From Rhodanobacter sp. DHG33 (GTDB lineage Bacteria > Pseudomonadota > Gammaproteobacteria > Xanthomonadales > Rhodanobacteraceae): 64,000 nt of DNA. Positions 23,328 to 41,171 of the stretch are shown here, one piece after another; position 1 is the stretch's first letter, and each line of letters begins with the position of its first letter. The stretch covers positions 248,001-312,000 of the forward strand of contig NZ_JACYXM010000001.1 in assembly GCF_014843005.1 (NCBI RefSeq). Direction: 5' to 3'. The notes beneath the pieces are model-generated. The model saw only the letters and a list, made by a program, of their open reading frames with translations. It was not told the DNA's origin and did not search any database. Made by a program: the position numbers and the translations under genes.

Positions 23328-23336
23328 GCGCGCAGC

Positions 23337-24689
23337 CTATCCCTTCTCCCCTGCCGCGGCGTGGCTCGGCAGCCACAGCCGCGCCAAAGCGCCGTGCGCA
23401 CCCTCGCGCGCCACCAGGGCCACGCCGCCCTCGTGCGCCTCGGCGATCTGCCGCGCCAGCGCTAGGCCGATGCCGGAGCCGCCGGGCTTGGTGGTGAAGA
23501 ACGGCACGAACAGGTTGTCGCTGGGCGGCGGCCCGGGGCCGTCGTCTTCCACTTCGATCACGGCGCGCTCCCCGTCGCGACGCCAGCGCAACCGCACGCC
23601 GCCATCCGGCAGCGAAGCCTCCACCGCATTGCGCACGAGATTGATCAGCGCCTGTTCGAGCTGGTCGGGATCGGCCGTTACCGTCAATGGCTCGCCAGCC
23701 TCCACGGCTACCGTCACGCGCTGTTCCAGCTTCGCCAGCTTGGCCAGCAATGCGGACAGCTCCACCGCGCGCGGCTGCGGCGGCGGCAGGCGCGCCAGCT
23801 TGCTGTAGCTGGAGAGGAAACGCCCCAGCGCCTCGGCGCGGTGGCCGATCAGCTCCAGGCCGCCGCGAAAATCCTCGCGCCAGTCCTCGGGCAAGGGATC
23901 GCGCGCGGCCAGCGTGGCCAGGGTACCGGCCATCGACTGGATCGGCGCCAGCGAGTTGTTGACCTCGTGGCCCAGCACGCGCAACAGGCGCTGCCACGCC
24001 ACGCGTTCTTCTTCGCGCAGCACGCGGCCCACGTCGTTGATCACCAGCAGCTGGCCGCCACGGCCGCCGCTGCGCAATGCCGCATGGCGGATCTCGAAGC
24101 GACCGCTGCGCCCGGGAAACACATGCCGGAGCAGGCGCGCCGATGGTCCTTCCAGCAACGAGGCCAGACCGAGTTCCGCCGCGCTGAGGCCGAACAGGCG
24201 ATGGCGCTCGGCATCCAGCAGGCGCTGCGCCGCCGGGTTGAGCAAACGCAGTCGTTGGCCTTCGTCGAACACGAACACCGCACTGTCCAGTGCCGCCAGT
24301 GTCTTGCCCAGCAGGTAGGAGGATTCCTCGAACTCCAGCCGTTCGCGCTGCAGCCGCTCGGCCAGCGCGTTGATGTCGTAGATCGCGTCGCCCAGCACGC
24401 CGCCCTGCACGCCGCGCAGGCTGTAATCGCCCTGGCGCAGGGCCTCCAGCAGTCCGGACAGCGTATACAGCGGGAACACCACGCGGCGGTACTGCCAGCG
24501 CGCGAGCAGCAACGTGGCGACAACCGCAATGGCCACGCACGCCCAGCGCAATGGCTCGTCCAGAGGCATCCAGGCGAGCGCCATCGAGGCGAGCAACGTG
24601 GGCGTCGCCACCAGCAGGCCGCCGAGCAGCACGCGCCGCTCGAAGCGAGGCATGCGGCCGGCGCGCTGCAGGGATGGCTCAGTCGGCAT
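23337..24689 (-). CDS. NtrY-like sensor histidine kinase
   Basis: 450 residues from ATG 24689, overlapping the response-regulator stop by 11 bases (alternative ATG 24653). There are two membrane helices (about 18-40 and 48-65) with almost no periplasmic loop between them, so the signal is probably sensed in the membrane or cytosol. A linker, a PAS-like domain (about 125-220: LDSAVFVFDEGQRLRLLNPA) and a HisKA/HATPase core follow. The H-box is VLGHEVNNSLAPIQ with phospho-acceptor His241, then NLVRNAVEAS (N-box), EVEDDGPGPP (G1) and GSGIGLALAR (G2). The pattern matches NtrY-type kinases. It is the last gene of the exporter operon and the cognate kinase of the NtrC-type regulator. Confidence 0.92.
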   Translation of the reverse strand: MPTEPSLQRAGRMPRFERRVLLGGLLVATPTLLASMALAWMPLDEPLRWACVAIAVVATLLLARWQYRRVVFPLYTLSGLLEALRQGDYSLRGVQGGVLGDAIYDINALAERLQRERLEFEESSYLLGKTLAALDSAVFVFDEGQRLRLLNPAAQRLLDAERHRLFGLSAAELGLASLLEGPSARLLRHVFPGRSGRFEIRHAALRSGGRGGQLLVINDVGRVLREEERVAWQRLLRVLGHEVNNSLAPIQSMAGTLATLAARDPLPEDWREDFRGGLELIGHRAEALGRFLSSYSKLARLPPPQPRAVELSALLAKLAKLEQRVTVAVEAGEPLTVTADPDQLEQALINLVRNAVEASLPDGGVRLRWRRDGERAVIEVEDDGPGPPPSDNLFVPFFTTKPGGSGIGLALARQIAEAHEGGVALVAREGAHGALARLWLPSHAAAGEKG

Positions 24690-26082
24690 CGACGGCGGCG
24701 TCGCGCAGGTCGTGCTTGTCCAGGCGCCGGTACAGCGACTGCCGCGTGATGCCCAGTGCGTCGGCGGCACGCTGCAGGTTGCCGTCGAAACGCTCCAGCG
24801 CACGCTGCACCAGATGCGCCTCGGCCTGCTCCAGCGTCATGCCGTCGAGATCCGTCGAGAGCGGTGCGGCGGCCTCGCCGAAAGCCAGCGCCGCCGCGCC
24901 CACCTCGGCATGCTCGGCGAGCAGCGCGGCGCGCTCCATCAAATGCTGCAGTTCGCGTACGTTGCCGGGCCAGCGCCATGCCGTCAGCGCGCGCTCGGCC
25001 GAGGGCGCCAGCCGCAGCCCGTCGCGTCCGTACCGCTGCGCGTTGCTGGCGAGAAAGGCGCGCGCTAGCGGCAGGATGTCCTCCACGCGATCGCGCAGCG
25101 GCGGCAAGCGCACTTCCAGCGTATTGAGGCGATAGAGCAGGTCCTTGCGGAAGCGGCCCGCGGCCACCTCGGCGACCAGGTCCGCATTGGTGGCCGAGAC
25201 CAGCCGCACGTCCGTCTTCTGCGTGCGCGATGAACCCAGGCGCTCGAATTCGCCGTCCTCCAGCACGCGCAGCAGCTTCGGCTGCTGCGAAGCCGGTACG
25301 TTGCCCACTTCGTCGAGGAACAGCGTGCCGCCGTCGGCCAGTTCGAAGCGGCCGATGCGCTCGCTCTTGGCGTCGGTGTAGGCGCCGCGCACATGGCCGA
25401 ACATTTCCGACTCGAACACGCTCTCCGCGATGCCGCCCATGTTCACCTTGACCAGCGAGCGCGCCGCACGCGGCGAGCGCTGGTGCAGCAGCTGCGCGAT
25501 CACGCCCTTGCCAGTGCCGTTCTCGCCCAGCACCAGCACGTTGGCGTCGCTGGATGCGACGCGCTCGACCAGCGCCACCACGCGGCGCATGGCCGGCGAC
25601 TCGGCGATGAAATCCTCGCCCGTCTCGCCACGCAGCAGCGCGTTCTCCGCCTCCAGCCGGCGCTGCCTGCGCGCGCCCTCGGCCAATGCGATCTGTGCGC
25701 GCAGCACGCTGACGAGGCGCGTGTTGTCCCACGGCTTCTCGATGAAATCGGCGGCGCCGCGGCGCATCGCCTCCACCGTGAGCGGCACGTTGCCCCATGC
25801 CGTCATCGTCACCACCGGCAATTCGGGCGAAAGCTGGCGCAGGTGTTCCAGCAGGTGCAAGCCTTCCTCGCCCGACGTGGTGTCGCGCGAGTAGTTGCAG
25901 TCGATCAGTGCGCAGGCGAACTCGCGCTTGCGCACCGCCTCCAGCGCCGCCGCCGGATCGGCCACGCCGACGCTGGCGATGCCCTCGGCCTTCAGCAGCA
26001 GGCGCAAGGCCTCGCGCACGTCAGCCTGGTCGTCGGCGATCAGGACGGTGGGATTCGATTCGCGCGCCATGCGTTCGTTCAT
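24679..26082 (-). CDS. NtrC-family sigma-54-dependent response regulator
   Basis: 467 residues. The receiver domain (about 12-130) has the acidic pair Asp17/Asp18, phospho-acceptor Asp61 ([10 protein letters not shown]), Thr92/Thr94 and Lys116. The AAA+ domain (about 155-390) carries Walker A GENGTGKG (186-193), Walker B LFLDEVGN (254-261) and the R-fingers in [10 protein letters not shown] Fis-type helix-turn-helix ends the protein ([12 protein letters not shown]). The sigma-54 contact loop reads GAYTDA (233-238) instead of GAFTGA, and the sensor region reads VNMGGI. This variant is known to me from a distinct clade of NtrC-type regulators. The gene lies 16 bp after the last permease and most likely controls this operon's own sigma-54 promoter. 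Confidence 0.93.
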
Positions 26083-26098
26083 CCGTGCAGTGTAAGGG

Positions 26099-28516
26099 TC
26101 ACTCGTAGCGCAGCGCGACCGCGGGATCGACGCGCAGCGCGCGCAGCAGCGGCACCAGTGCGGCGAATGCGGAGACGCCGATCACCAGCAGCAGCACCGG
26201 CACGAACACCGCCGGATCATGCGCGCGCGTGTGCAGGCCCGGGTCGGCCAGCACGCCCGACCACGGCACGGCCAGCAGCAGGCCGATGCCCAGCCCGAGA
26301 CCGAGCTGCCATGCCAGTTGCCGCGCCACCGTACGCACGATGGCGCCGTGCCCGGCGCCGATCGCGCGACGGATGCCGATCTCGCGCGTGCGCTGCGCCA
26401 CCGAGAACGCCAGCACGCCATACAGCCCTGCGCCGGCCAGCAGCAATGCCACCAGCCCCAGCGCCGCAAAGACTTCGGTCATCACCTGCAGCTTGACGCG
26501 CGTGATCGCCATCGCCTTCGCCTGGCTGTACATCGCATGCACGGCCGCCTGCGGATCCACCTCTCGCACCGCCGCGGTCAGTTGCCGCACATAGGTTTCC
26601 GCGTCGGCATGCGTGCGCACCGCCAGTCCCATGCGGCGACGCAGCGGCCCCTGGGTCGCCGCCTGCTCCAGCGGGAGCAGCAGTCCGGGCAGCGGCCTTT
26701 CCAGCGCACTGTCCAGCTGCAGCGGCTCGATCACGCCGACGACGGTCAGCGTGAGGGTCCGCGTGCGGCCCGGCCACAACACCAATTTGCGGCCCAGCGC
26801 ATCGCCGTGCGGCCACATCGCCTCGGCCAGCTTGGCATCGACCACGGCCACCGGTGCGTTGTCTGCACGGTCCCGCGCATCGAAGAAACGCCCCGCGCGC
26901 AGACGCACGCCGTAGGTGGCGAGAAAGTGCGGATCGACGATGCCCATCTGCACCCGCGGCCAGCCGTCCGATGGCTGCGGCTGGCCCGGCAGGGACACGT
27001 CCTCGTGGCTGCCGAGTTGGGCGCTTGGAATGGTGTCCGAGGCGGACGCGTCGATCACCGCAGGATCGCTGCGCAAACGCTCGACCACGGTATCCAGGAA
27101 ACGGATGCGCTGCGCATCGTCGGTGTATCGCGCCGGTGGCAACGCCACATCCGCGGTGAGCACCTGCGCGGCGTGCGTGGCGCCGATCGAGCGCTCCGCC
27201 ATCAGTCCGCCCAGCGCCCGCACGAACATGCCTGCGCCTACCAGCAGCACCACGGTGAGCACCACTTCCGCGACCACCAGCACCTTCGCCACCTGGGCGA
27301 AACCGCTGCCGGAACCCTTGCTGCCGTCGCGCAGCGCATCCTGCAGGTCGGCGCGCGCAGCGCGCCAAGCAGAAACCAGTCCGGCCAGGGCGGTGCAGAG
27401 TATGCCCACGCCGAAACCGAACAACAGCACCCGGCCATCGATGCCGAAGCGAAAAAACATGTTCGGCGGATCGTCGCTGGCGACGAACACGCCGATCAGC
27501 CAGCGATTGCCGAACTGCATGATCGGCACGGCCACCGCCAATGCCGCCACGCTGAGCAGCAGACTTTCCACCAGCACGCCGACCATCAGGCGCCAGCGGC
27601 CGCCGCCGAGCGCGCTGCGCAAGGCCAGTTCGCGACGCCGGTTCAGGGTCTGCACCAGTTGCAGGTTCGCCACATTGACGCAGGCCAGCAGCAATACCAG
27701 ACCGGTGGCGCCGAACATCAGCCAGACCCAGCCACGCATATCCTCAGGGACGAAACTTACCGACAACGGCCTGACCGTCAACGGCAGCCCGCGCTGATCC
27801 ATCGGCAACGCGAGCTGCATCGCGTCTCCGCGCGCGGCAAGTTCCGCACCTGCCTGCGACAACTCGAAGCCCGGCGCCAGCCTGGCGACACCGGAGATGT
27901 AAAGATGTTGGCCCTGCCTCAGCTGCAGCGGCATCCACAACTGGCTGGCCTGCGGGAAACCGAAATCCGCGGAAAGCACGCCGATCACCGTGGCCGGCTC
28001 GCCGTTCACCTGCACCACATGCCCCACGATATGCGGGTCGGCATGGAAGTCTTGCCGCCACAGCGTCTCGCCCAGCAGCACCACAGGAGCAGCGCCCGGC
28101 ACTTCGTCGGAAGCGATGAAACCGCGGCCGAGGATGGGCTCCACGCCAAGCAACTGCATCATCGAGGCGGTGAGTCGGGTGCCGCGCGCAAAGTTCGCGC
28201 CGTCGCCGCTATCCAGATTGAATCCGGTTTGGGCATACGCCCCGAGCATCTCCACGCTGCGCAGATGCCCCTGCAGCTGCAGGTACTGGTCGCTGTCGAT
28301 GGTGCCGATGCCGTAGCCGTTGGACGGTTGTTCGCCGACCGCAATCAATCGGTCCGCCTGCGGAAACGGCAGCGGCCGCAGGATCATCGTGTTGACCAGG
28401 CCGAACAGGAACAGCACCACGCCCAGTCCGACGCCCAGCATGGCCACCGACAGCAAGGCATAACCCGGCCGCCGCATCAGCCGGCGCCACGCTCCGCGGA
28501 ATTCGCGCACGATCAT
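26099..28516 (-). CDS. FtsX/MacB-type ABC permease, fifth and most divergent paralogue
   Basis: 805 residues. It has a duplicated layout: membrane helix 1 (LLSVAMLGVGLGVVLFLFGL), a MacB-like periplasmic domain, three helices, then a second helix-periplasmic-three-helix unit. Both halves keep the FtsX coupling-helix motif in its usual form (NRRRELALRSALGGG around residue 295 and RTREIGIRRAIGAG near 705). It differs from the four upstream permeases, which start M(N/T)I(W/F)L(A/V)EIW and end in ALRGE: this one starts MIVREFRGAW and ends VALRYE. Only one base separates it from the preceding gene, and the response regulator follows. It must use the shared ATPase encoded upstream, since it has no ATP-binding domain of its own. 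Confidence 0.9.
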   Translation of the reverse strand: MIVREFRGAWRRLMRRPGYALLSVAMLGVGLGVVLFLFGLVNTMILRPLPFPQADRLIAVGEQPSNGYGIGTIDSDQYLQLQGHLRSVEMLGAYAQTGFNLDSGDGANFARGTRLTASMMQLLGVEPILGRGFIASDEVPGAAPVVLLGETLWRQDFHADPHIVGHVVQVNGEPATVIGVLSADFGFPQASQLWMPLQLRQGQHLYISGVARLAPGFELSQAGAELAARGDAMQLALPMDQRGLPLTVRPLSVSFVPEDMRGWVWLMFGATGLVLLLACVNVANLQLVQTLNRRRELALRSALGGGRWRLMVGVLVESLLLSVAALAVAVPIMQFGNRWLIGVFVASDDPPNMFFRFGIDGRVLLFGFGVGILCTALAGLVSAWRAARADLQDALRDGSKGSGSGFAQVAKVLVVAEVVLTVVLLVGAGMFVRALGGLMAERSIGATHAAQVLTADVALPPARYTDDAQRIRFLDTVVERLRSDPAVIDASASDTIPSAQLGSHEDVSLPGQPQPSDGWPRVQMGIVDPHFLATYGVRLRAGRFFDARDRADNAPVAVVDAKLAEAMWPHGDALGRKLVLWPGRTRTLTLTVVGVIEPLQLDSALERPLPGLLLPLEQAATQGPLRRRMGLAVRTHADAETYVRQLTAAVREVDPQAAVHAMYSQAKAMAITRVKLQVMTEVFAALGLVALLLAGAGLYGVLAFSVAQRTREIGIRRAIGAGHGAIVRTVARQLAWQLGLGLGIGLLLAVPWSGVLADPGLHTRAHDPAVFVPVLLLVIGVSAFAALVPLLRALRVDPAVALRYE

Positions 28517-28517
28517 C

Positions 28518-30974
28518 TCACTCCCCCCTCAAGGCACACATCGGCGCCACGCGCGATGCGCGCAACGCCGGCCACAGGCAGGCCAGCAGGCCGACCGCCA
28601 CCAGCAGCACGCAGACCATCAGCAGGACCGCCGGATCGAACACGCTGCGCTGCATCTGCACCAGCACGGCACGCAGCACGCCCGCGAGAACGAAGGCGAT
28701 GCCCAGCCCCATGCCCAGGCCCACGACGATCTGCAGCAACGCGCCGCGCAAGACGCTGCGCACCAGCCGCGACGGCGATGCGCCCAGCGCCAGCCGTACG
28801 CCGAATTCGCGCTCGCGCAGCGTCACTGCCACCGATATCACCGCGTAGATGCCCGCAGCGGCCAGTGCCAGCGCGAGCGCCGCAAAGATTCCGATCAGCA
28901 ACAGATCCATGCGCGTGGCATCCGTGGTGCTGCTGACGATGCTCTGCATGCTGCGCATGCGGGCAATCGGCTGGTCGGGGGCCACTTCGGCGACAGCGGC
29001 AGCGACGGCTGCACGATAGCCGTCCGGATCGCCGTGCACGCGCAGCGCGAACCGCAATGGTAGGTAGCTGCGCATCAGACCGGCGAGATCGTCCGGCACC
29101 TGCTGCATCGACAGATACAGGATGCCGTCCCGGTCACCCAGAGGCCCGAACGGGCTGATGTCGTCGACGATGCCCACGATGCGCGCGGAGTACGGGCTCA
29201 CCCCGACGCTCTTCTCGGTGGTGCCGATATCGATGGTCTGGCCCAGCGCATGCCCTCCATACAGTCGCTGCGCCAGCGTGCGGTTGACGATGGCCACGGC
29301 CTCGCCACCTTTGACGTCCGTGTTCTGGAAGGCGCGCCCCTCGCGCGGAGTGATGCCGAAGGTCGCGAAATAGTCCGTGTCGACGCTGCGCAGCTGCGGG
29401 GAATTCGCGCGCAACGGCTCATTGCCGGGCGCATGGACGAAACCGAAGTAGAAATTCTGCGTCCTGTCGCCCATGGGCAGGCCCGTGCCGACCGCGACGC
29501 GCTCGACGCCGGACTGCGCACGCAGCCGGTCCTGCAGTTGCCGCGTGAGTCGCTGCAACGAAGCGGCATCGGGATAGTCGGCCCTGACCGGCGCCAGCTC
29601 GAAGGTGAGCACGCCTCTGCTGGAGAACCCCAGCGTAGCGTGCGCGGCGTCGTACAGCGCATGCAGGAACAGTCCCGCCGCACACAGCAGGGTCGCGGCC
29701 AGCGCCACCTGCGCCATCACCAGCACGCGCCCCAACGGACCGTCGCGGCGTCCCGCGCTACCACGTCCGCCTTCCCGAAGATCTTCCACCGACAGGGCCG
29801 ACAAGCCGCGCCAAAGCCCCAGCGCCACCGCCAGCAACGCACCCGCCATGCCCAGGCATAACGCCACCGCCGCGGTCGAGGCGGTGAAACGCAGCTGGCT
29901 GCCCGCCAGCCATTCCGGAGGTATCAATCCGCTCAGCAGATTCAGTCCCAGCCAGCCCAGGGCGATGCCCAGCAGCGTCCCGCCGAGACCGACCAATACG
30001 CCCTCCGACAGCATCGGCGATACCTGCCGCCCCCATGACGCGCCCAGTGCGCCGCGTACCGCCGCATCGTGGCTGTGCGACAAGGTGCGCAGCAGCATCA
30101 GGTTGGCGAGGTTCACCCACGCGATCAGCAGCACGAGTGACGCACTCGCCAGGAACATCATCAGCACTGGCCGCGCCCTGATCCGCATCGCGATCCTGAG
30201 ATCGTCGGCGCGGAACCGCAGGCCTTTCATGTATTCGCTGCCGGCATCGTGCTTCGCCGCGAACACCGCGTGCAGACGCGTGTCCGCCTCGGCGCCGACC
30301 GCTGCCGCCGTCGCCCCGGGCGCGAGCCGGGCGATCGCCCGGTAGTTGTTGCTGTCGTCATCCGTGCTGCCGACGGCAAAAGCGGTGGGCAATACGAGGT
30401 CGCCCTGCTTGAGGTCGATGCCCTCCGGCAGCACGCCGACGATGGCATGCGACACGCCCTCGATCGACAGGACACGGCCGATGACGCGGGCATCGCCGCC
30501 ATAGCGACGCAACCAGAAACCGTGACTCAGCATCACTGCCTTCGGGCCGTTCGGGCGATCCTCGTCCGCGGTGAAATTGCGGCCGAGGACCGGTTCGACT
30601 TCGAGCGTCGGCAGGTAGCCGCGATCGGCATGAATGGCCGGCACCAGCTCGGGCGTGCCATCACCGGCGATGTTGACGGACAGCGCATCCGCCTCGATCA
30701 GGCCCAGCGACCGCACACCCTGCAGCGGCAGCAGATGCTGGTATTCGCTGGGCGATATCCAATAGGCGACACCGTACTTTTCCTGTCCCACCTGCACCAG
30801 TTCGGACGCGCGCGGATACGCCAGCGGCTGCAGCAGCATCGCATTGACCAGGGCGAACACCGCCACGCTGGCGCCGATGCCCAGCGCCAGCACGCCGACG
30901 GCCAACGTCAGGTAGCCGGGGCGTCGGAGCATGGCGCGCCACGCGCGCCAGATCTCAACGAGCCAGATGTTCAT
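28518..30974 (-). CDS. FtsX/MacB-type ABC permease, fourth paralogue
   Basis: 818 residues from ATG 30974 after AAAAGGGA; an alternative ATG at 31001 overlaps the upstream stop as ATGA. The N-terminus MNIWLVEIWRAWRAMLRRPG is nearly identical to that of the third paralogue, at DNA level too, which argues for recent duplication. Features: membrane helix 1 (YLTLAVGVLALGIGASVAVF), a MacB_PCD domain with AVMLSHGFWLRRYGGDARVIG, an FtsX unit with the altered motif SHSHDAAVRGALGAS, and a second unit with REREFGVRLALGASP, ending CALRGE. Predicted inner-membrane permease of a tripartite exporter. Confidence 0.9.
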   Translation of the reverse strand: MNIWLVEIWRAWRAMLRRPGYLTLAVGVLALGIGASVAVFALVNAMLLQPLAYPRASELVQVGQEKYGVAYWISPSEYQHLLPLQGVRSLGLIEADALSVNIAGDGTPELVPAIHADRGYLPTLEVEPVLGRNFTADEDRPNGPKAVMLSHGFWLRRYGGDARVIGRVLSIEGVSHAIVGVLPEGIDLKQGDLVLPTAFAVGSTDDDSNNYRAIARLAPGATAAAVGAEADTRLHAVFAAKHDAGSEYMKGLRFRADDLRIAMRIRARPVLMMFLASASLVLLIAWVNLANLMLLRTLSHSHDAAVRGALGASWGRQVSPMLSEGVLVGLGGTLLGIALGWLGLNLLSGLIPPEWLAGSQLRFTASTAAVALCLGMAGALLAVALGLWRGLSALSVEDLREGGRGSAGRRDGPLGRVLVMAQVALAATLLCAAGLFLHALYDAAHATLGFSSRGVLTFELAPVRADYPDAASLQRLTRQLQDRLRAQSGVERVAVGTGLPMGDRTQNFYFGFVHAPGNEPLRANSPQLRSVDTDYFATFGITPREGRAFQNTDVKGGEAVAIVNRTLAQRLYGGHALGQTIDIGTTEKSVGVSPYSARIVGIVDDISPFGPLGDRDGILYLSMQQVPDDLAGLMRSYLPLRFALRVHGDPDGYRAAVAAAVAEVAPDQPIARMRSMQSIVSSTTDATRMDLLLIGIFAALALALAAAGIYAVISVAVTLREREFGVRLALGASPSRLVRSVLRGALLQIVVGLGMGLGIAFVLAGVLRAVLVQMQRSVFDPAVLLMVCVLLVAVGLLACLWPALRASRVAPMCALRGE

Positions 30975-30997
30975 GCACGAATCCCTTTTCCATCGTT

Positions 30998-33421
30998 TCA
31001 TTCCCCACGCAAGGCGCGCATCGGCGCCACGCGCGATGCGCGCAGGGCCGGCAGCAGGCAGGCGAACAGGCCCGCGATGGCGAGTACCGCGCAGGCGCCG
31101 CCCAACGCCACCGGATCGAAGGTATTGCCGCGTCCCGCCAGCGACAGCAGAAGCTGTCCCAGCAACCGCGAAATGCCGAGCACGATGGCGATACCGACCA
31201 TCAAGCCGACTGCGATCTGCGCCATCCCGTTGCGCAGCACTTGCCACATCAGGCGTGCCGGCACGGCACCCAAGGCCGTCCGCACGCCGAACTCGCGTTC
31301 GCGCGCCGCCACCGCCACGGCCATCACCGCGTACATGCCGGCCATCGCCAGCAGCAGCGCCAGCGTGGCGAACACGCCGACCAGCAATAGGGTCCGGTGC
31401 GTGTCCGCCGTGGTCGAGCGCACGATCTCATCCATGCTGCTGAAGCCGGAGACCGGCTGGCCGGGCGCAATCTGCGCCACCGCCGCGCGCGCCGCGGCGC
31501 CCCACTGGCCGGGGTCGCCATGACCGCGCAGGACGACGCGCATCGGCATGAAGTAGCGAATGAAGTCGAGGTCGCCATCCGGGATCTGCGCCAGCGGCAC
31601 GTAGACGATGCCAGGGGCCGGCTGCAGCGGACCGGACTGGCGCGTATCGGCGACGACCCCGACGATGCGCGCCGACCGTCCGTCGTCCTCCTGGATGCGC
31701 TCGCCCAGCGCATGGCCGCCGTACATCCGCAGGGCGAGGGCGCGATTGACGATCGCTACCTGCTCGCCGCCACGCACGTCGTCGCGCGTGAAGGCACGCC
31801 CGCGCAAGACGGCAATGTCGAACAGGCCGAAATACTCGGGGCCGACACCGAAGTAATCCATGTCCACACGCTCGCTGCCGTGGCTGCGCACGTTCGTGTT
31901 GAACGCATGCCCGGGACCCGTCGGCAGATTGGTGGTGACCGTGGCGGTGGTCACGCCGGGGATCGCTTCCAATCCACGAACCAGTCGCTCGGAGAGGGCA
32001 TTCACCGATTGCGCATCGGGGTAATCCGCCCGCACCGGCGCCAGATCGAAGGCAAGCATGTTCGCGCTCGAAAACCCGAGCGGCGTCTGCGACGCCTTGT
32101 ACAGGCCGTGCAGCAGCAGTCCGCTGCCGCACAACAGCACGGTGGCCAGGAACATCTGCGCCACGACCAGCGCGCGACCAAGCCGTCCGCTGCGCCGGTC
32201 GAGTCCGCTGCGCCCGCCTTCGCGCAGCGTTTCGCCCGCCACCGTCGCCTGGCTGCGCCAGACGCCGAATGCCGCGGCGGATACGGCAACGGCCGCCGCA
32301 GCAACGGTTGCCGCCAGCCCCATCCACACCGGCATGCGGATGCCGGCGCCGGGCAGCCAATCCGCCGATACTGCGCCTTGCAGCGCGTGAAGCCCGGTCC
32401 ACGCCAGCGTCGTACCGACCAGCGCGCCGACGATGCCGACGAGCAGGCCTTCCGCCAGCGCCGGCAGCACCAGCCGCGACCGCGATGCGCCCAAGGCGTC
32501 GCGCACCGCGCTGTCGTGGGCCTGCGACAGCGAGCGCAGCAGCATGAGGTTGACCAGGTTCACCAGGGCGGTCAGCAGCACGAACAATGCGCAGGCCATG
32601 AACAGCATCAAGGTGGCATGCGCATTCGCGTGCTGCCACGCCGCGATCGGCTGCGCGCCGAACCGCGCTTCTTTCCAGTTCTCCACATACTTGGAGCCCA
32701 GTGCGGCATACATGGCGTGCAGGTGCGCATCCATCTCCGCCGCCATGGCTTGCCGGTGCGCGCCCGAGTCGAGTCGCACCAGCGCGATATCGTTGAGACC
32801 GTCGACCGTGCTGTGCGGCGGAAGCGCCAGCGGCAGCGCCACGTCGCCACTGAAGGCGAGGCTGTCGAAAGACTTCGGCAAGATGCCGACGACGGTATAG
32901 CCGACGCCTTCGACATCCAGCGCCTGCCCCAGCACCTCGGGATTGCCGCCGTAACGGCGTTGCCAGAACCCGTAGCCGAGCATGACCGCATGCGGTCCGT
33001 TCGGCGCATCCTCCTGTGCCGTGAAATTGCGCCCGAGCAGCGGATGCAGGCCCAGAGTCGGCAACATGCCCCGGTCGATATAGGCGGCCGACACGACCGT
33101 GGGCCGGCTGCCGCCGGTGATGTTGACGTTGGGCTTGGAAAACAGCGTCGCACCGGTCGACTCGATGTGCTCGAGCGGCATCAGGTGCTGATACTGCAGC
33201 GGCGACACAACGCGCTGCCCGTCGAACACGGGGCCGACCACCATCACCCGCGATGCGTCGGGAAGCGGCAACGGCTGCATCAACACCTGATCGATCAACG
33301 TGGCCACCGCCACGCTGGCACCGATGCCCAGCGCCAGCACCCCGCTCGCCAGCAGGAGGAAGCCGGGGCGCCGCAGCATGGCCCGCCATGCATGCCAGAT
33401 CTCAACGAGCCAAATGTTCAT
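30998..33421 (-). CDS. FtsX/MacB-type ABC permease, third paralogue
   Basis: 807 residues. The start MNIWLVEIWHAWRAMLRRPG follows a GAAAGGGGC ribosome-binding site. Membrane helix 1 is FLLLASGVLALGIGASVAVA. The periplasmic MacB_PCD domain carries AVMLGYGFWQRRYGGNPEVLG; the first FtsX unit has SQAHDSAVRDALGAS; the second has REREFGVRTALGAVP; the end is RALRGE. Same order and spacing of modules as its neighbours. 24 bp separate it from the second paralogue, and its stop overlaps a possible start of the fourth. Confidence 0.9.
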   Translation of the reverse strand: MNIWLVEIWHAWRAMLRRPGFLLLASGVLALGIGASVAVATLIDQVLMQPLPLPDASRVMVVGPVFDGQRVVSPLQYQHLMPLEHIESTGATLFSKPNVNITGGSRPTVVSAAYIDRGMLPTLGLHPLLGRNFTAQEDAPNGPHAVMLGYGFWQRRYGGNPEVLGQALDVEGVGYTVVGILPKSFDSLAFSGDVALPLALPPHSTVDGLNDIALVRLDSGAHRQAMAAEMDAHLHAMYAALGSKYVENWKEARFGAQPIAAWQHANAHATLMLFMACALFVLLTALVNLVNLMLLRSLSQAHDSAVRDALGASRSRLVLPALAEGLLVGIVGALVGTTLAWTGLHALQGAVSADWLPGAGIRMPVWMGLAATVAAAAVAVSAAAFGVWRSQATVAGETLREGGRSGLDRRSGRLGRALVVAQMFLATVLLCGSGLLLHGLYKASQTPLGFSSANMLAFDLAPVRADYPDAQSVNALSERLVRGLEAIPGVTTATVTTNLPTGPGHAFNTNVRSHGSERVDMDYFGVGPEYFGLFDIAVLRGRAFTRDDVRGGEQVAIVNRALALRMYGGHALGERIQEDDGRSARIVGVVADTRQSGPLQPAPGIVYVPLAQIPDGDLDFIRYFMPMRVVLRGHGDPGQWGAAARAAVAQIAPGQPVSGFSSMDEIVRSTTADTHRTLLLVGVFATLALLLAMAGMYAVMAVAVAAREREFGVRTALGAVPARLMWQVLRNGMAQIAVGLMVGIAIVLGISRLLGQLLLSLAGRGNTFDPVALGGACAVLAIAGLFACLLPALRASRVAPMRALRGE

Positions 33422-33445
33422 GCCCGAACGCCCCTTTCCATCGCT

Positions 33446-35899
33446 TCATTCCCCGCGCAAGGCGTGCATCGGCGCCGTGCGTCCGGCCCGCATCGCCGGC
33501 ACCAGACAGGCCAGCACGCCGGCACATGCAAGCACTATGCAGGCGGCGAGTAAGGCCCAGGGATCGAACACGCTGCGCCCCAGCTGCACCACCACCGCAC
33601 GCAGCACGCCCGAGCCCGCCGCGCCCAGCACCACACCGGCGGCGAGACCCAGCACGATCTGCAGCAGACCTCCACGCAACACCAGCAGCAACAGGCGGCG
33701 CGGCGACGCGCCCAGCGCAGCGCGCACGCCGAACTCGCGCTCACGCGCGGCGACCGCCACTGCCATCACCGCATACATGCCCACACCGGCCAGCAGCAGG
33801 GCCAGCCCGCCCAGCAGGCCGACCAGCATGAGGTCGAATTCCGTGTCGGTGGTGATGTCGTGCACGATCCAGGCCATGCTGTACACGTGGTTGATCGGCT
33901 GGTCGGGCGCCACTTCGGCTACCGCCTTCTTCACCGCATCGCGGTAACCGTCGGGGTCGCCTTGCACCTTGATAGCGAAGCGCAAAGGCTCGTACGTGCG
34001 GAAGGCGCGCAATATGTCGTCCGGCATCTGTGCCAGCGGCAGATAGAGGATGGGCGTCGCCGCGTCCGGATCTTCCGGGCCGAACTGGTAGGTACTGGCC
34101 ACCACGCCCACGATGCGCGCTGAGAGCATGTCCGCACCCGAACCGCGTTGGATGATCTGGCCCAGCGCGCGGCCGTGGTAGTGCTGGTCGGCGAATTTCT
34201 GGTTGACGATGGCCACGGCTTCGCCGCCCCGCACATCGGTATCGGCGAACAGGCGGCCTTGCAGCAGGCGTATGCCGAACACCCCGAAGAAACCCGGATC
34301 GGCCGCATGGAGCTGGGCGTTGAAATCCTCGCCGCCCGGGGCGTGCATGTTCATGCGCCACTGACCGCTGAAATCGCCCGCCGGCAGATTGGTGCCCATC
34401 GCCGCCTGGCTCACGCCGGGAATCCGGCGCAGGCGTTCGACCAATCTCTGCGACAAGACCTGCACGGAAGCGGCATCGGGATAGGTCGCCTTGACCGGTG
34501 CGAGTTCGAAGGTGAGCACGCCGCGCGCATCGAAGCCCAGGTCGATCTTCGCGTTGTCGAGCAAGGTGCGCAGGAACACACCAGCCGCGCACAACAGCAA
34601 CGATGCCAGCGCCACCTGAGCGATCACCAGGAGGCGACCCAGCAGCCCGCTGCGCCGGCTGAATCCGCTGCGGCCGCCTTCGCGCAGGCTGTCTGCCGAC
34701 AGGGCGGCATGGCCGCGCCACAGGCCCAGAAAGGTGGCGACCAGCGCGCCGAATAGGCCGACCGCAATGGCCAGCGCCCACGCCGGCCAGCCGAGACTCA
34801 AGCCGCCGGGGCGCGTCCACTCCACCACCATCCAGTCGGCCGGCATCCATATGCGTATCGCCGCCAGGCCCATGGCTGCCAAAGCCTGCCCGAACAGCAC
34901 GCCGAGCAGGCCGACCAACACGCCCTCCGCCATCGAAGGCAGCGCCACGCGCCACGGCGAAGCGCCGAGCGCACCGCGCACGGAGGCATCATGGGTACGC
35001 CCAATCGCGCGCAGCATCATCAGGTTGGTGAGGTTGACCAGTGCGATCACCAGCAGCAGTGCTGCACTGGCCAGCCACATCAACGAGATTGCGCGCAACC
35101 CATGGTGTTCTTCCGCACCGAAATCCTGCGTACCGAAATGCGCGCGCAGCCAGTAATCACCGGCATATACGTGGCGACCTTGCGCGACATAAAAGGCATG
35201 CAGACGCGTCTGCACTTGTGCAGCCAACCCCTCGCGGGTAAAGCCAGGCTCCAGACGCGCCACCGCGGTGTAATCGTTGGAGTCCTCGGGCGTGCTTGCG
35301 CGAAATGCCGTGGGCAACGCGATGGATGCCTGACCGAGATCGAAACCCGCCGGCAACACGCCGACGATGGTGTGCGCGATGCCTTCCACCTGCATCGTCT
35401 TGCCGATCACGGCGGGATTGCCACCGAAGCGGCGCAGCCAGAAACCGTGATAGATCAGCACCACTGGCGGCCCGTTCGGCTGGTCTTCCTGCGCGCTGAA
35501 GTTGCGACCCAGCACGGGCTGCACGCGCAGCGTGGGGAGAAGGTTGTGGTCGATTGCCTGCGCCGGCACCTGCACCGGCTCGCCGTCGCCAGACACGTTC
35601 GTGGCGGTTGTTTCTCCCTTAAAGATGCCCAGCGAATTCACTCCCGGCAGATCGGCCAGTTGCTGGTATTGCTGCGGCGACACGCCCACCACATTGCCTT
35701 GCTCGACCTTGCCTAGCGCAACCAGTCGGTGCGGCTCGGGATAGGGCATGGGTCGCAGCAGCACGCCGTCGACCAGGGTGAACACGGCACTGGCCGAACC
35801 CACGCCCAGCGCCAGCACGGCCGCCGCCAACAGCAAAAAACCTGGCCGGCGCACGGTAGCCCGCCATGCCTGCCAGATCTCGGCAAGAAAAATCGTCAT
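33446..35899 (-). CDS. FtsX/MacB-type ABC permease, second paralogue
   Basis: 817 residues from ATG 35899 (MTIFLAEIWQAWRATVRRPG), four bases after the previous stop, with a G-rich ribosome-binding region inside that gene's end. Helix 1 is FLLLAAAVLALGVGSASAVF. The periplasmic part has VVLIYHGFWLRRFGGNPAVIG, and FtsX units are marked by GRTHDASVRGALGAS and REREFGVRAALGASP. It ends HALRGE. The reading frame extends upstream but only as antisense-like sequence within the first paralogue, so I placed the start at the position homologous to the other permeases. Confidence 0.9.
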   Translation of the reverse strand: MTIFLAEIWQAWRATVRRPGFLLLAAAVLALGVGSASAVFTLVDGVLLRPMPYPEPHRLVALGKVEQGNVVGVSPQQYQQLADLPGVNSLGIFKGETTATNVSGDGEPVQVPAQAIDHNLLPTLRVQPVLGRNFSAQEDQPNGPPVVLIYHGFWLRRFGGNPAVIGKTMQVEGIAHTIVGVLPAGFDLGQASIALPTAFRASTPEDSNDYTAVARLEPGFTREGLAAQVQTRLHAFYVAQGRHVYAGDYWLRAHFGTQDFGAEEHHGLRAISLMWLASAALLLVIALVNLTNLMMLRAIGRTHDASVRGALGASPWRVALPSMAEGVLVGLLGVLFGQALAAMGLAAIRIWMPADWMVVEWTRPGGLSLGWPAWALAIAVGLFGALVATFLGLWRGHAALSADSLREGGRSGFSRRSGLLGRLLVIAQVALASLLLCAAGVFLRTLLDNAKIDLGFDARGVLTFELAPVKATYPDAASVQVLSQRLVERLRRIPGVSQAAMGTNLPAGDFSGQWRMNMHAPGGEDFNAQLHAADPGFFGVFGIRLLQGRLFADTDVRGGEAVAIVNQKFADQHYHGRALGQIIQRGSGADMLSARIVGVVASTYQFGPEDPDAATPILYLPLAQMPDDILRAFRTYEPLRFAIKVQGDPDGYRDAVKKAVAEVAPDQPINHVYSMAWIVHDITTDTEFDLMLVGLLGGLALLLAGVGMYAVMAVAVAAREREFGVRAALGASPRRLLLLVLRGGLLQIVLGLAAGVVLGAAGSGVLRAVVVQLGRSVFDPWALLAACIVLACAGVLACLVPAMRAGRTAPMHALRGE

Positions 35900-35903
35900 G
35901 TCC

Positions 35904-38317
35904 CTACTCCCCCCGCAACGCTTGCATCGGTACCACGCGTGTCGCGCGCAATGCCGGCAGCAGGCAGGCAATGAGGCCCGCGGCGGCAAGCGTCACGCAC
36001 ACCCAGGCGACGATCAGCGGCTCGAAGCGAATCTCCGCCACCGATGCCACGACGCCTCGCAACCAGTCCGTCAGCAACCAGCCCACGCCCACGCCGAGGA
36101 GCAGGCCCATCGACACTTGCAACAACCCCGTGCGCATCACCAGGCGCCCCAGCTGCAACGGCGCCGCTCCCAGCGCCAGGCGCACGCCGAACTCGCGCCG
36201 TCGCGCGGCTACGGCCACCGCCATCACGGCGTACATGCCGGCCGCGGCCAGCAGCAGGGCCATGAGCGCGAACAGGCCGACCAGCAGCAGATCCAGGCGC
36301 ACGGGTTCGGTCGTTCCGCGGGCGATGTCCGCGAGGTTGCGCAAGTTGGCGATCGGCTGCTGGGGCGCGATCTCGGCCAGTATCGTGTGCACGGCGTTGC
36401 GGTAGTCACCGGGGTTGCCGTGCGTACGCAGCGCGAAGCGCAGCGGGATGAAATCGCGGATCAGGCCCATGACGGTGTCGGGCACCTGGGCCAGCGGCAC
36501 GTAGACGATCGCCGGAGCGGACTGCAGCGGACCGAACTGGCGCGTGTCGGCCACGACTCCGACGACGCGCACCGTGGGATTGCCGGTGGTGCCGAACACC
36601 ACTTCCAGCGTCTTGCCCAAGGCCTTGCCGCCGAGATAGGTGCGTGCATAGGCCTCGTTGACCACGGCCACCGCTTCGCTGCCCGCGCCGTCGGACCGCT
36701 CGAAGCCGCGCCCGCTGCGCAATGGAATGTCGAAAGCGGCAAAGTAGCCGGGACTCACGCCCCGGAACTGCACGGCATCGGCCTGGCCACCGGGCGCGCG
36801 CACCGGCATGTTGAGCTGGTCGCCGATCGGCAGATTGGTGGTGGCCGCGACATCCGCGACGCCCGGCTCCGCGCGCAGGCGATCCAGCACGCGCTGGGTC
36901 AGCTGCTGCACCGAGGGTACGTCCGGATAGGCCGTCTTGATCGGCGCAAGCTCGAAGGTCAGCACACCCTGCGTGGAAAAGCCCAGCGGTGTCCGCGCCG
37001 CATCGCGCAAGGCATGCAGAAACAGTCCCGCTCCGCACAACAGTGTCGTGGCCAGGGTCACCTGCGCCACCACCAGTGTCTTGCCCAGAAGGCCGCTGTG
37101 CTGGCCGATGCCGTTGCGTCCGCCCTCACGCAGTTCGTCGACGGTGGTGGCCGCACGGCCACGCCACAGGCCCAGCACTGCCGACAGCAATGCGCCGGTC
37201 AAACCGATCGCCAATGCCACGATCCACGGCAGCCAACCGGTCGCATGCACGGCATCCGCCTGCCACTCCGCCGGCATGAATCCGTGCAAGGCATGCAGCC
37301 CCAGGCCGGCTAGGCCCATGCCGGCCACGGCACCGACAAGCCCGACCAGCACACCCTCCGCCAGCGCCGGCCACGCAAGGCGCATGGTCGGCGCCCCCAG
37401 GGCCGCGCGCACGGCGGCATCATGGGCGCGCGCCAGCGCCCGCAAGACCATCAGATTGACGAGATTGACCAGGGCGATCAGCAGCACGAACAAGGCACTG
37501 ACCATAAACATGGACAGCACGCGGCCCGATTCGCCTCGCAGGCCCGAACGCAGTTCGACGGCGTTGTACTGCGTGTGCACGCCCGCCTCGCCCTGCTTGC
37601 CGCCGATGGCGGCGTACATCGCATGCACGCGCGTCGCGAACTCGGCACTCAGCATGCCGAGGCTGGTACCCGGTGACATCCGCACCACCGCGAGATAATT
37701 GGTGCCGTCATCACGCGACTGGGCGGGCAGTGCCGCCGGCAACAGCAAATCCGGGCCACCCAGCAAGTCGAAGCTGGCCGGCAGTACGCCGACGATGGTG
37801 TACGAGCTGCCTTCCAGCGGCAGGCTGCGGCCGACCACGTTGACGTCGCCGCCGTAGCGGTGCTGCCAGAAGCCGTACGAAAGAATCACCGCCTTCGATC
37901 CGTGCGGGCTGTCCTCGCCGGCATCGAAATTCCGTCCCAGCGCCAGGCGAACGCCCAGCGTCGGCAGTAAGCCCCGGTCCACATCCAGCGCCTCGACCTG
38001 TTCCGGCTGACCATCGCTGGTGACGTTGGCCGGCGTCAGACTGGCCTCGAGCAGGCCCACGGAAGCGATCCCGGGAAGCGTCGGAAGCTGCTGATACTGC
38101 AGCGGCGAAATCTGCCGGTCCGTGGTGTCGCGACCCACGTTCGCCAGTTGCGCGGGTTGCGGATACGGCAGCGGTTTCAGCAGCACCTGGTCGATCAGTG
38201 CGAACACCGCCACGCTGGCGCCGATGCCCAGCGCCAATACGCCGCTCGCCAGCAAGAGGAAGCCTGGCCGGCGCAGACTGGCCCGCCAGGCCTGCCAGAT
38301 CTCGGCGAGCCATATGT

Positions 38318-38321
<4 letters not shown>
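35904..38321 (-). CDS. FtsX/MacB-type ABC permease, first paralogue
   Basis: 805 residues. ATG 38321 overlaps the ATPase stop as ATGA, so translation is coupled to the ATPase. N-terminus MNIWLAEIWQAWRASLRRPG; helix 1 FLLLASGVLALGIGASVAVF; MacB_PCD with AVILSYGFWQHRYGGDVNVVG; first FtsX unit with ARAHDAAVRAALGAP; second with RRREFGVRLALGAAP; end QALRGE. Because each polypeptide holds two FtsX-type units (about eight membrane helices), one copy could form a complete transmembrane pore, as in YbbP-like permeases, rather than dimerising like MacB (inference). Confidence 0.9.
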
Positions 38322-39094
<773 letters not shown>

Positions 39095-39141
39095 CGGGTT
39101 GTGCGGGTCTCCCTGCGTGCAGGGAGGACGTCGTGTCGCGC

Positions 39142-40395
39142 TTACTTCAACTTGATGCGGTCGTATTTGTCCCACTGGCTGGCATCGGAAAGGATCACGC
39201 GATCGCCCGTCTTGAGGCCGCGCACTATCTGCACGCGATCCACCGAAGCCGCGCCGATGCGCACCGGCACGCGTGTCGCAGTGTCGCCATTGGGATCGAG
39301 GCGGAACAGGCTGAGGTCGGCATCGGCCTGGGCCAGCGCCGGGCGGCCTACCGAGAGCACGTCGTGCAGTTGCGCGATCAGGATGCGTCCGTCCACGGAG
39401 AGGTCGGGCCGCGCGCCGGGCGGCAGCTTGCCGGTGAGCACCACGTCCACCTGCACGCTGCCGTTGCGTACGGCCGGATCGATGCGCTCCACCTTGCCGT
39501 CGATCAGGCCGTTGTGCGTATCCACGCTCACCGGCATGCCTATCGCCACGTCCTTGGCCTGCACCTCGGGCACCTGCAGGCGCGCGATCAGCACGTCGGG
39601 CTTGGCCACGCGCGCGAGATTGGCACCGGCGGCCACCTGCGCGCCTTCCTGCACCGCCACTTCCTGCAGCACGCCGGCGATGCCGGCTTTCACCTGGAGG
39701 GCATCGGCTTGGCGCTGGCGCAGTTGCAGGTTGCTCTGCTGTTGCATCAGCGCAGCCTGCACCGCGTCGAGCTGCGCCTTCATGCTGGCGGCGAACGCGG
39801 CCACGCGCTGCTGCTCGATGTCCATGCGTTCGTGCAGCTGCTTCAGCGCGATCTGGCCCTGCGCGTACTCCACCTGGGGGATCAGGTGCTGCTGTATCGC
39901 GATGGTGTCGGTGTCCGCCTTGACCTTGGCAGAGGCGTAATCGGACTGCGCCTGCGCGTACGCGGAACGCTGGTCGAGCAACTGCGATTCGAGCTCGGCG
40001 CGCTTGGCCGCGACATCGGCCTGCGCCGCGGCCACTTGGGCCTGCGCGTTGCGCAGCGCGTCCTCGGTTTGCGGGTCGCTGAGCTGCATCAGCACGGTGT
40101 CCGGCTGCACCTGCGCACCCGGCCACACGAGGATCTTTTCCACCTGCGCCTGCGTGGACGCGGCCAGCCAGCGGATCTCGCGCGGCGCGAGCGTGCCGGT
40201 GGCGCGCACTTCGCGCAGCATGTCGCCCTGCTGTACGGCGTCGATCCACAGACTGCCGCGGTCCGCCACGGGGAGCGCCGGGCCCAGCCGCCAGACCAGC
40301 ACGGCCAGCACGGCCACGGCCAGGGCGCCGCCGCCCACCATGAGGCGCAGGCGGCGGCGCTTGCGGATGCCATACATCGGGTTTGCGATATCCAT
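39142..40395 (-). CDS. HlyD/MacA-type membrane fusion protein
   Basis: 417 residues from ATG 40395 (MDIANPMYGIRKRRRLRL). A basic N-terminus and one membrane helix (about 17-36) anchor it in the inner membrane. A lipoyl half-motif (VEKILVWPGAQVQPDTVLMQ), a long Gln/Ala-rich alpha-hairpin (about 115-245), the second lipoyl half (VKAGIAGVLQEVAVQEGAQV) and beta-barrel/membrane-proximal domains follow. It would bridge the permease to an outer-membrane channel; no TolC-like gene is present in the window. It is the first gene of the exporter operon. The predicted sigma-54 start site lies within one or two bases of this ATG. Confidence 0.93.
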   Translation of the reverse strand: MDIANPMYGIRKRRRLRLMVGGGALAVAVLAVLVWRLGPALPVADRGSLWIDAVQQGDMLREVRATGTLAPREIRWLAASTQAQVEKILVWPGAQVQPDTVLMQLSDPQTEDALRNAQAQVAAAQADVAAKRAELESQLLDQRSAYAQAQSDYASAKVKADTDTIAIQQHLIPQVEYAQGQIALKQLHERMDIEQQRVAAFAASMKAQLDAVQAALMQQQSNLQLRQRQADALQVKAGIAGVLQEVAVQEGAQVAAGANLARVAKPDVLIARLQVPEVQAKDVAIGMPVSVDTHNGLIDGKVERIDPAVRNGSVQVDVVLTGKLPPGARPDLSVDGRILIAQLHDVLSVGRPALAQADADLSLFRLDPNGDTATRVPVRIGAASVDRVQIVRGLKTGDRVILSDASQWDKYDRIKLK

Positions 40396-40405
40396 GCACG
40401 GTACA

Positions 40406-40423
40406 TGGCAAGCGGCGTGCCAA
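40406..40423 (-). promoter_or_regulatory. Predicted sigma-54 promoter of the exporter operon
   Basis: On the minus strand the sequence reads TTGGCACGCCGCTTGCCA, with GG (40421-40420) and GC (40409-40408) separated by exactly ten bases, matching TGGCACG-N4-TTGC. Possible upstream activator sites lie about 115-145 bp further upstream: GTCCG-CAAA-CGGAC (40517-40530) and the perfect palindrome GACCGCGGTC (40535-40544). This fits control by the NtrC-type regulator encoded in the same operon. Confidence 0.72.
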
Positions 40424-40547
40424 CCGGCGGCCACGCAAAAAAGCCTTGCAGATCAAGGCCGCAGTCCGTGTCGAAGGACGATCGCGGCGAGGCGCCGTCC
40501 GCATCCGGATCGGCACGTCCGCAAACGGACGCCCGACCGCGGTCAGA

Positions 40548-41171
40548 TCAGTGCGCGCCGCGTTGCCGCTGCAGGCCGACCTGCATGATGCGGTCGGTCC
40601 ACGCGATGCCGACGGCCGAGAGGATGAACACCGAGTGGATGATGGTCTGCCACATCACGCCCACCGGGGTGAGCGTGGCGCACTGCAGTCCGGTGGCGGC
40701 ATCGCTGCTCTCGGCGATGGCCGCCAGTTCCGCTGGCGAACAGAACGGCAAGCCCTGCAGCGCGCCGGCGGCAATGAAGGTCTTCAGCAGGTGGATCGAA
40801 GAAATGCCGATGATCGCCATGGCCAGCTTCACCTTCAGCACCGAGGCGTTGACGTGGCTCAGCCACTCCGGCTGGTCGGGATGGTCCTCCAGCCCGAGGC
40901 GGGCGATGAAGGTCTCGTAGCCGCCCACGATCACCATGATGAGCAGATTGGAGATCATCACCACGTCGATCAGGCCGAGCACGATCAGCATGATCTCCTG
41001 CTCGCCCATCTTCGACGCATGGTTGATGAGGTGCCAAAGTTCCTTGCCGAACAGGAACACGTAGACGCACTGCACCACGATCAGGCCGAGGTAGAGCGGC
41101 AACTGCAGCCAGCGCGCGTTGAAGATCAGCAGGGGCAGCGGGCCGAGCTTGGGTACGGGACGATCGGACAT
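40548..41171 (-). CDS. yqhA: YqhA/UPF0114 family inner-membrane protein (TIGR00645)
   Basis: 207 residues with four hydrophobic segments. It begins near [20 protein letters not shown], continues with a conserved [20 protein letters not shown] stretch and [10 protein letters not shown], and has [20 protein letters not shown] in the middle; these are characteristic of the YqhA family. The function is unknown in E. coli. Start ATG 41171 is the first in frame. It follows ppc by 60 bp on the same strand and precedes the exporter promoter. Confidence 0.9.

Follow-up and report, generated by a model that had tools for sequence, protein, structure and literature searches.

How are permeases of a kind known as orphans supplied with energy, and what switches them on? 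The question is raised by a stretch of 64,000 nucleotides from Rhodanobacter sp. DHG33 (C11:248001-312000, in a source genome of 3.76 Mb and 43 contigs), here called the window, in which a single operon carries an adaptor gene, an ATPase gene, five permease genes (P5 to P1) and a two-component system. The permeases appear to be of the ADOP type (acidobacterial duplicated orphan permease, TIGR03434), a family whose name implies the lack of a neighbouring ATPase, and we know of no established power source for such orphans. We read the operon, with a probability of about 0.58, as a type VII (MacB/LolCDE/YbbAP-like) ATP-binding cassette (ABC) system under sigma-54 and two-component control, in which one ATPase and one adaptor would serve five alternative permeases. 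This reading is drawn from sequence, namely from the operon order, the intact genes, purifying selection, conserved promoter and activator sites, the double modules of the permeases, and a conserved chassis combined with exchanged permeases. The genes are, in order of transcription:

39142..40395, minus strand: periplasmic adaptor (membrane fusion protein), start predicted to be leaderless; matches Pfam HlyD_3 and, above its cut-off, NCBIfam TIGR01730
38318..39094, minus strand: LolD/MacB-type ABC ATPase, 258 residues, the operon's sole ATPase; Pfam ABC_tran and NCBIfam models, queried from 39049 (243 of the 258 residues)
35904..38321, minus strand: permease P5, ADOP-type, 805 residues; TIGR03434 622.3 bits, equal to the cut-off
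33446..35899, minus strand: permease P4, 817 residues; TIGR03434 613.7 bits
30998..33421, minus strand: permease P3, 807 residues; TIGR03434 604.7 bits
28518..30974, minus strand: permease P2, 818 residues; TIGR03434 619.3 bits
26099..28516, minus strand: permease P1, terminal-slot clade, 805 residues; TIGR03434 659.8 bits
24679..26082, minus strand: NtrC-family sigma-54 response regulator, 467 residues; Pfam REC, sigma-54 AAA and Fis helix-turn-helix
23337..24653, minus strand: histidine kinase, 438 residues, two hydrophobic helices joined by a very short loop; HATPase domain, and a PAS match too weak to reach its cut-off

The genes, their order, common strand and sizes are as an earlier sequence-only reading had described them, according to reading-frame coordinates and Pfam/NCBIfam matches, and the N-terminal motif that it reported (M-x-I-W/F-L-A/V-E-I-W) was found again in four permeases. 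The eight junctions measure, from adaptor to kinase, 47, -4, 4, 24, 23, 1, 16 and 25 bp; the close spacing thus stands, with no gap above 47 bp, while the "several" overlaps reduce to a single one of 4 bp between the ATPase stop and the P5 start. A kinase is present as well; against its label as NtrY-like, its best NCBIfam scores are those of the AtoS and ZraS models, far below their cut-offs.

With regard to the permeases, each of the five chains carries two MacB_PCD and two FtsX domains (Pfam), and their TIGR03434 alignments span about the full 803 positions of the model, P1 and P5 reaching the cut-off of 622.3 bits and P2, P4 and P3 falling 3-18 bits short; on these matches all five are read as ADOP-type. 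P5 shares 50-52% identity with P4, P3 and P2, and 30% with P1. A structural model of P5 built from 56 sequences (predicted local distance difference test, pLDDT, 92.2; predicted template modelling score, pTM, 0.88), which replaced a poor five-sequence model (pLDDT 69.4), contains eight long membrane-type helices, assigned by eye from the helix list without a transmembrane (TM) predictor, and none extra between the modules; a structure search returned YbbP as its closest solved fold. Each chain is probably a complete transporter core, with two modules and two coupling helices. Conservation was analysed over 82 permease rows (the 83 of the tree described below minus L023_p1). Among P2-P5, the coupling-helix regions are conserved at 71 and 82%, compared with 45 and 49% for the periplasmic domains. 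This contrast, together with conserved synteny and a conserved upstream control region, supports the earlier proposal that one ATPase and one adaptor head the permease array.

The permease tree comprised 83 of 108 rows, all rows of the distant loci L030, L031, L033, L034 and L038 being left out. P1 belongs in it to a clade of 20 rows, every one from a last slot, and P2, P3, P4 and P5 fall in different lineages. P4 and P2 each have a relative of 90% identity in L013 and P3 one of 87% in L014, while P5 has none above 56%. P2, P3 and P4 are each much closer to these genes of other species than to one another, and therefore the paralogs would have split before the species compared. Duplication in place, as first supposed, is at best ancient, and a recent event is rejected by the tree; judging from it, the paralogs are old lineages that were sorted, lost and exchanged. 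As to the possibility that the permeases belong to unrelated clades with ATPases of their own elsewhere, P1 does form a separate clade and P2-P5 different lineages, yet the operon ATPase accompanies the permeases across the family.

Divergence within related operons is likewise unequal. In L016, synonymous divergence (dS) amounts to 0.25-0.43 for the adaptor, ATPase, NtrC-type and kinase genes, but P1 is only 64% identical, with a dS of 0.66; in L014, the adaptor (dS 0.31) and the ATPase (0.25) are close, but P1 is 65% identical, with a dS of 0.86. We read this as a constant chassis whose permeases are lost, kept or exchanged. The ratio of nonsynonymous to synonymous divergence (dN/dS) against orthologs, calculated for the genes with close orthologs, i.e. 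all but P5, is 0.15-0.19 for P1-P4, 0.10-0.19 for the adaptor and 0.04-0.19 for the non-permease genes overall; these values indicate purifying selection on the genes covered. The idea that P1 is an obligatory sensor permease beside the kinase was tried and is weakened, since, of 28 last-slot permeases with rows of at least 700 residues, 8 lie outside the P1 clade with the regulator still there; the last slot of L040 and L022 holds a split or remnant P1.

The layout is not exclusive to the source genome and, by its recurrence among relatives, is a conserved plan common in the family. Permeases were found at E<=1e-100 in 11 of 15 genomes of the genus, with 2 to 5 matches each (the second of G002 being partial), and at E<=1e-150 in 52 of 147 genomes of the family, covering 16 of 26 genera; permease numbers per genome in the family search are lower bounds (best six candidates scored). 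Synteny was checked in the window plus 35 stretches picked around permease hits, thus not a random sample, and the complete order of adaptor, ATPase, permeases, NtrC-type regulator and kinase recurs in 28 of these 36, with one to five permeases. Of the eight incomplete stretches, L014 runs into the end of its contig, L030 and L034 break off before the kinase or the regulator, and L031, L033 and L038 have several permeases and no adaptor within the stretch. Some relatives, e.g. L063, L111 and L112, possess a single permease between ATPase and regulator; longer stretches from Dokdonella-type relatives hold about ten permeases in G056 and about eight in G106 and G030, as counted from uncurated six-frame blast matches. 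The arrays of G056, G106 and G030 each have a second ATPase towards their end; such a second LolD-type ATPase, 46-50% identical to that of the window, is present near the end of L123, L125, L127 and L128 (Dokdonella-type and related arrays). The last two of the eight incomplete stretches, L036 (5345-7798, plus) and L037 (5229-7682, minus), lack a chassis and each carry a solo P4-type permease that shares 77-79% identity with P4; their genomes, G122 and G090, have the operon elsewhere. Of 421 confirmed adaptor relatives in named genomes, the 80 listed include Rhodanobacter, Dyella, Frateuria, Fulvimonas, Oleiagrimonas, Dokdonella, Chiayiivirga, Lysobacter, Stenotrophomonas and Acidobacteria. 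Among the hits listed from open PMC texts, none points to this layout in its title or in the opening of its abstract.

The presence of the ATPase follows that of the permeases. Within the family, among the matches listed, the ATPase was found at E<=1e-85 in 52 of 52 permease-positive genomes and in 13 of the 95 others, its identity in the former being at least 72% in 49, 64% in G119 and G147, and 56% in G125. Ten of the 13 ATPase-only genomes contain a lower-scoring, stop-free fused ADOP no more than 2 kb away from the ATPase (that of G121 is truncated where the contig ends, that of G089 is on the opposite strand), and none was seen near the ATPase in G046, G086 and G138. Conversely, no unbroken fused ADOP was detected at E<=1e-100 in the five ATPase-negative family genomes checked. 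Seven acidobacterial genomes, chosen for holding the adaptor, contain 14, 42, 7, 43, 15, 8 and 4 ADOP matches (E<=1e-120, up to 48 candidates scored). In every one of them a single ATPase shares 70-74% identity with that of the window, the next being at most 55%. In a sample of 60 genomes of the phylum Acidobacteriota drawn around G152, with ADOPs called at E<=1e-180, an ATPase of at least 60% identity occurs, among the matches listed, in 20 of 20 ADOP-bearing versus 0 of 40 ADOP-less genomes, or in 19 of 19 without G152, which was itself preselected. Such high-identity copies number one in 19 of the 20 genomes and three in G165, while ten of these genomes have at least 13 ADOPs and five have a single one. 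In G175, the 21 kb downstream of the ATPase contain seven listed ADOPs, and 58 bases separate the first of them from the ATPase. It is notable that, at the level of sequence matches, permease-bearing genomes offered no ATPase-less exception.

With respect to control, the following elements lie upstream of the adaptor gene, the two palindromes being predicted from conservation:

40408..40422, minus strand: sigma-54 -24/-12 element TGGCAC-N5-TTGC, the window's only TGGCAY-N5-TTGC match
40517..40530, minus strand: upstream activator palindrome 1, GTCCG-N4-CGGAC
40497..40510, minus strand: upstream activator palindrome 2, ATCCG-N4-CGGAC, 20 bp from palindrome 1

In 77 of 95 distinct loci, the pattern TGGCAY-N6-TGC begins between -30 and -24 relative to the aligned start of the adaptor (in 76, between -28 and -26), versus 1 of 18,600 dinucleotide shuffles. 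The 18 misses comprise 13 acidobacterial-type records and L069, L080, L095, L105 and L106, L080 being scored as a miss though it carries the element (87 upstream bases versus the 150 needed). Sigma-54 promoters usually have their GC at -13/-12, and with this spacing the transcript would start at the ATG or one base before it, predicting a leaderless mRNA; the ATG itself is supported by an M-D start invariant in ten aligned adaptors. When up to 5 mismatches in 20 positions are allowed, 66 of 93 loci have the palindrome pair, versus 137 of 4650 shuffles, and so do 37 of the 39 loci whose adaptor is at least 62% identical. In its exact form the pair has a single match in the genome, at this operon, and a reversed control pattern likewise matches once, so its specificity rests on position and conservation. 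A genome-wide regulon was considered and abandoned, this being the single site. The neighbouring NtrC-type regulator is the presumed ligand of the pair. As to separate promoters for the permeases, a consensus scan of 23200-40700 returned no sigma-70-like promoter. Terminator-like sites are no commoner than in shuffles (8 versus 8.5); one such hairpin (40442-40460, minus) lies between activator pair and promoter and perhaps belongs to the upstream gene.

The kinase has about six residues between its two hydrophobic helices. According to hydropathy windows, 24 of 27 kinases have two TM helices with 2-10 residues between them, and in three a single TM helix passed the threshold; the acidobacterial-type kinases L108, L109 and L116 have 9-12 residues there, and the slices of L111-L113 start after the first helix. 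Because the loop is so short, the kinase is predicted to be devoid of a periplasmic sensor domain, like BceS. Sensing of transporter cycling has been proposed for Bce kinases (PMC10314905), and by analogy the window kinase may sense its transporter.

The same genome contains a second operon of the same plan, C38:502547-534342 (L001, L002, L007), all on one strand, with the following counterparts:

C38 533032-534342: adaptor, 28% identical to that of the window
C38 532151-532876: ATPase, 59% identical
C38 504401-505801: NtrC-type regulator, 44% identical
C38 502547-503935: kinase, 36% identical

It encodes 18 half-size permeases arranged as nine N-half/C-half pairs. The coupling motif is kept in all nine N-halves, of which eight match the strict pattern and the ninth a relaxed one; neither pattern matches any of the nine C-halves. 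A sigma-54 element also precedes its adaptor, about 45 bases before the likely ATG, and with this spacing only the window-type operon is predicted to be leaderless. Two split permease pairs, C33:85903-88407 (L003) and C38:110847-113346 (L005), have no LolD-type ATPase nearby in the list made for this genome, and are candidate users of an ATPase in trans.

Compared with known systems, the window permeases are, like ADOPs, double MacB_PCD/FtsX proteins of about 800 residues, but, against the family name, they sit with an ATPase (overlapping P5), an adaptor and a two-component system. MacAB-TolC likewise combines an adaptor with a MacB-type ATPase and permease fold; however, MacB fuses the ATPase and a single permease module in one chain, whereas the window has a separate ATPase and five double-module permeases. 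The window proteins score far below the 966 bits of the MacB model NF007826, and the adaptor reaches 106 bits for TIGR01730 (cut-off 94.9) but 22.8 for the MacA model NF008606 (cut-off 342). The ATPase obtains 206.7 bits for the LolD model of LolCDE (cut-off 307.75); its top-scoring NCBIfam model is DarD of the darobactin exporter DarBCDE, where DarB, DarC and DarD scores are at most 38, 52 and 246 bits against cut-offs of 700, 450 and 375, all missed by far. In Bce modules (BceAB-BceRS), as in the window, only a very short extracellular loop separates the two TM helices of the kinase, but these modules are Gram-positive systems with an OmpR-type regulator, in contrast to the NtrC-type regulator, sigma-54 element and many permeases found here. 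YbbAP(-TesA), the closest solved fold, also joins a single-chain double permease to a separate ATPase. YbbP has 10 TM helices including two linkers, TM5/6 (PMC12646458), whereas eight and no linkers were read by eye from the P5 model, and no adaptor of the window type was seen for YbbAP in the consulted parts of that source. The operon flanks are housekeeping-like, with UPF0114 and phosphoenolpyruvate carboxylase genes upstream and an ABC-F-type gene downstream. No genes for ribosomally synthesised and post-translationally modified peptides were seen within the operon, and an anti-phage system was rejected, PADLOC giving only generic matches of the ATPase and AAA/regulator kind for the six proteins submitted (P2-P4 left out).

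In the mechanism that we propose, each permease chain alone would form a pseudo-dimeric core docking two copies of the shared ATPase, and its periplasmic domains would choose the cargo or partner. The adaptor would connect with a TolC-like duct in the outer membrane whose gene lies elsewhere, and ATP hydrolysis would drive periplasmic mechanotransmission and export. By analogy with what is proposed for Bce modules, the kinase may sense either the membrane or its transporter during cycling, and the regulator would bind the paired palindromes and fire one sigma-54 promoter, with the transcript beginning at the adaptor ATG. Several observations weigh against the shared-ATPase exporter or parts of it. 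Coupling-helix conservation is expected in any such transporter and is no proof of ATPase sharing, and two TM helices of P2-P5, conserved at 39 and 42%, are as divergent as the periplasmic domains. The co-occurrence counts ignore kinship, use a 60% line set after the data were seen and are based on a capped number of candidates per genome; four of the 40 ADOP-less genomes hold weaker ATPase hits (54-58%), and G125 has permeases with no better ATPase than its 56% one. There is the second ATPase of the Dokdonella-type arrays. In the kinase of the second operon, the loop measures about 27 residues, and a sensorless kinase is therefore no rule of the plan. Finally, the operon includes no gene for an outer-membrane factor or a substrate, a TolC-type duct gene being absent from the operon and the rest of the genome not searched for one.

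Other explanations were weighed on the same data. The permeases might not export at all, but act, in the manner of FtsEX or YbbAP-TesA, as mechanotransmitters or lipid extractors whose targets are envelope enzymes or lipids. The best fold match, YbbP, indeed works with a periplasmic hydrolase (PMC12646458), but the adaptor is of the resistance-nodulation-division (RND)/HlyD type typical of tripartite pumps, and the operon holds no envelope enzyme gene; we find this account rather doubtful. Alternatively, the array could be a mostly redundant product of birth and death, in which only one or two permeases matter and the extra copies reflect dosage or drift, as truncated, split or missing permeases in L009, L017, L022, L040, L041 and L058 would suggest. 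The dN/dS of P1-P4, similar to that of the adaptor (P5 being outside the comparison), and a divergence of about 50% with different lineages kept, which argues against dosage, make it unlikely.

The two remaining alternatives modify the pairing of ATPase and permease, and both appear highly improbable. In one, different permease chains would pair around one ATPase dimer to form mixed pores, as the sequence-only reading had entertained. The permease genes are indeed related, closely spaced and on one strand, and the N-half and C-half chains of the second operon presumably must pair; however, a hetero-oligomeric pore is unnecessary here, because every window chain already holds both halves and both coupling helices (Pfam domains, P5 model), and relatives such as L063, L111 and L112 keep a lone permease. 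In the other, every permease would have a LolD-type ATPase of its own, encoded outside the operon; the genome does hold further ones, but the operon ATPase accompanies the permeases in all 52 permease-bearing family genomes, and the genus member G004 lacks both. One engine serving interchangeable permeases remains the best reading of these sequences, and it perhaps extends to scattered "orphans" too.

Such orphans can be numerous: 102 of these permeases, 80 of them transcriptionally active, are reported from one acidobacterial genome (PMC10564751), and 28 and 33, of unknown function, are annotated in two Dyadobacter genomes (PMC11573002). A bolder proposal, to which we give somewhat less than an even chance, is that the "orphan" ADOPs of Acidobacteriota and Lysobacterales are all powered, in cis and in trans, by one conserved chassis of ATPase and adaptor, of which most genomes have a single copy; this would be a plug-in principle for MacB-type exporters, like that of energy-coupling factor (ECF) importers. 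In Lysobacterales it would be switched on by a leaderless sigma-54 operon whose kinase reads the transporter. Group II ECF importers use a shared ATPase. One ATPase also serves several permeases in the importers with MsmK and MceG (PMC4519317, PMC9947336). All of these are importers, whereas the window system is read as an exporter. We know of no tripartite-type exporter with a shared ATPase, and the literature searches on this point listed none.

The layout supplies a candidate for the missing ADOP engine: for a Rhodanobacter-type organism, it points to specific candidates for engine, adaptor and switch, so that what powers ADOP permeases becomes testable. With a constant chassis whose permeases are swapped between species, it also represents a natural experiment in exporter modularity.

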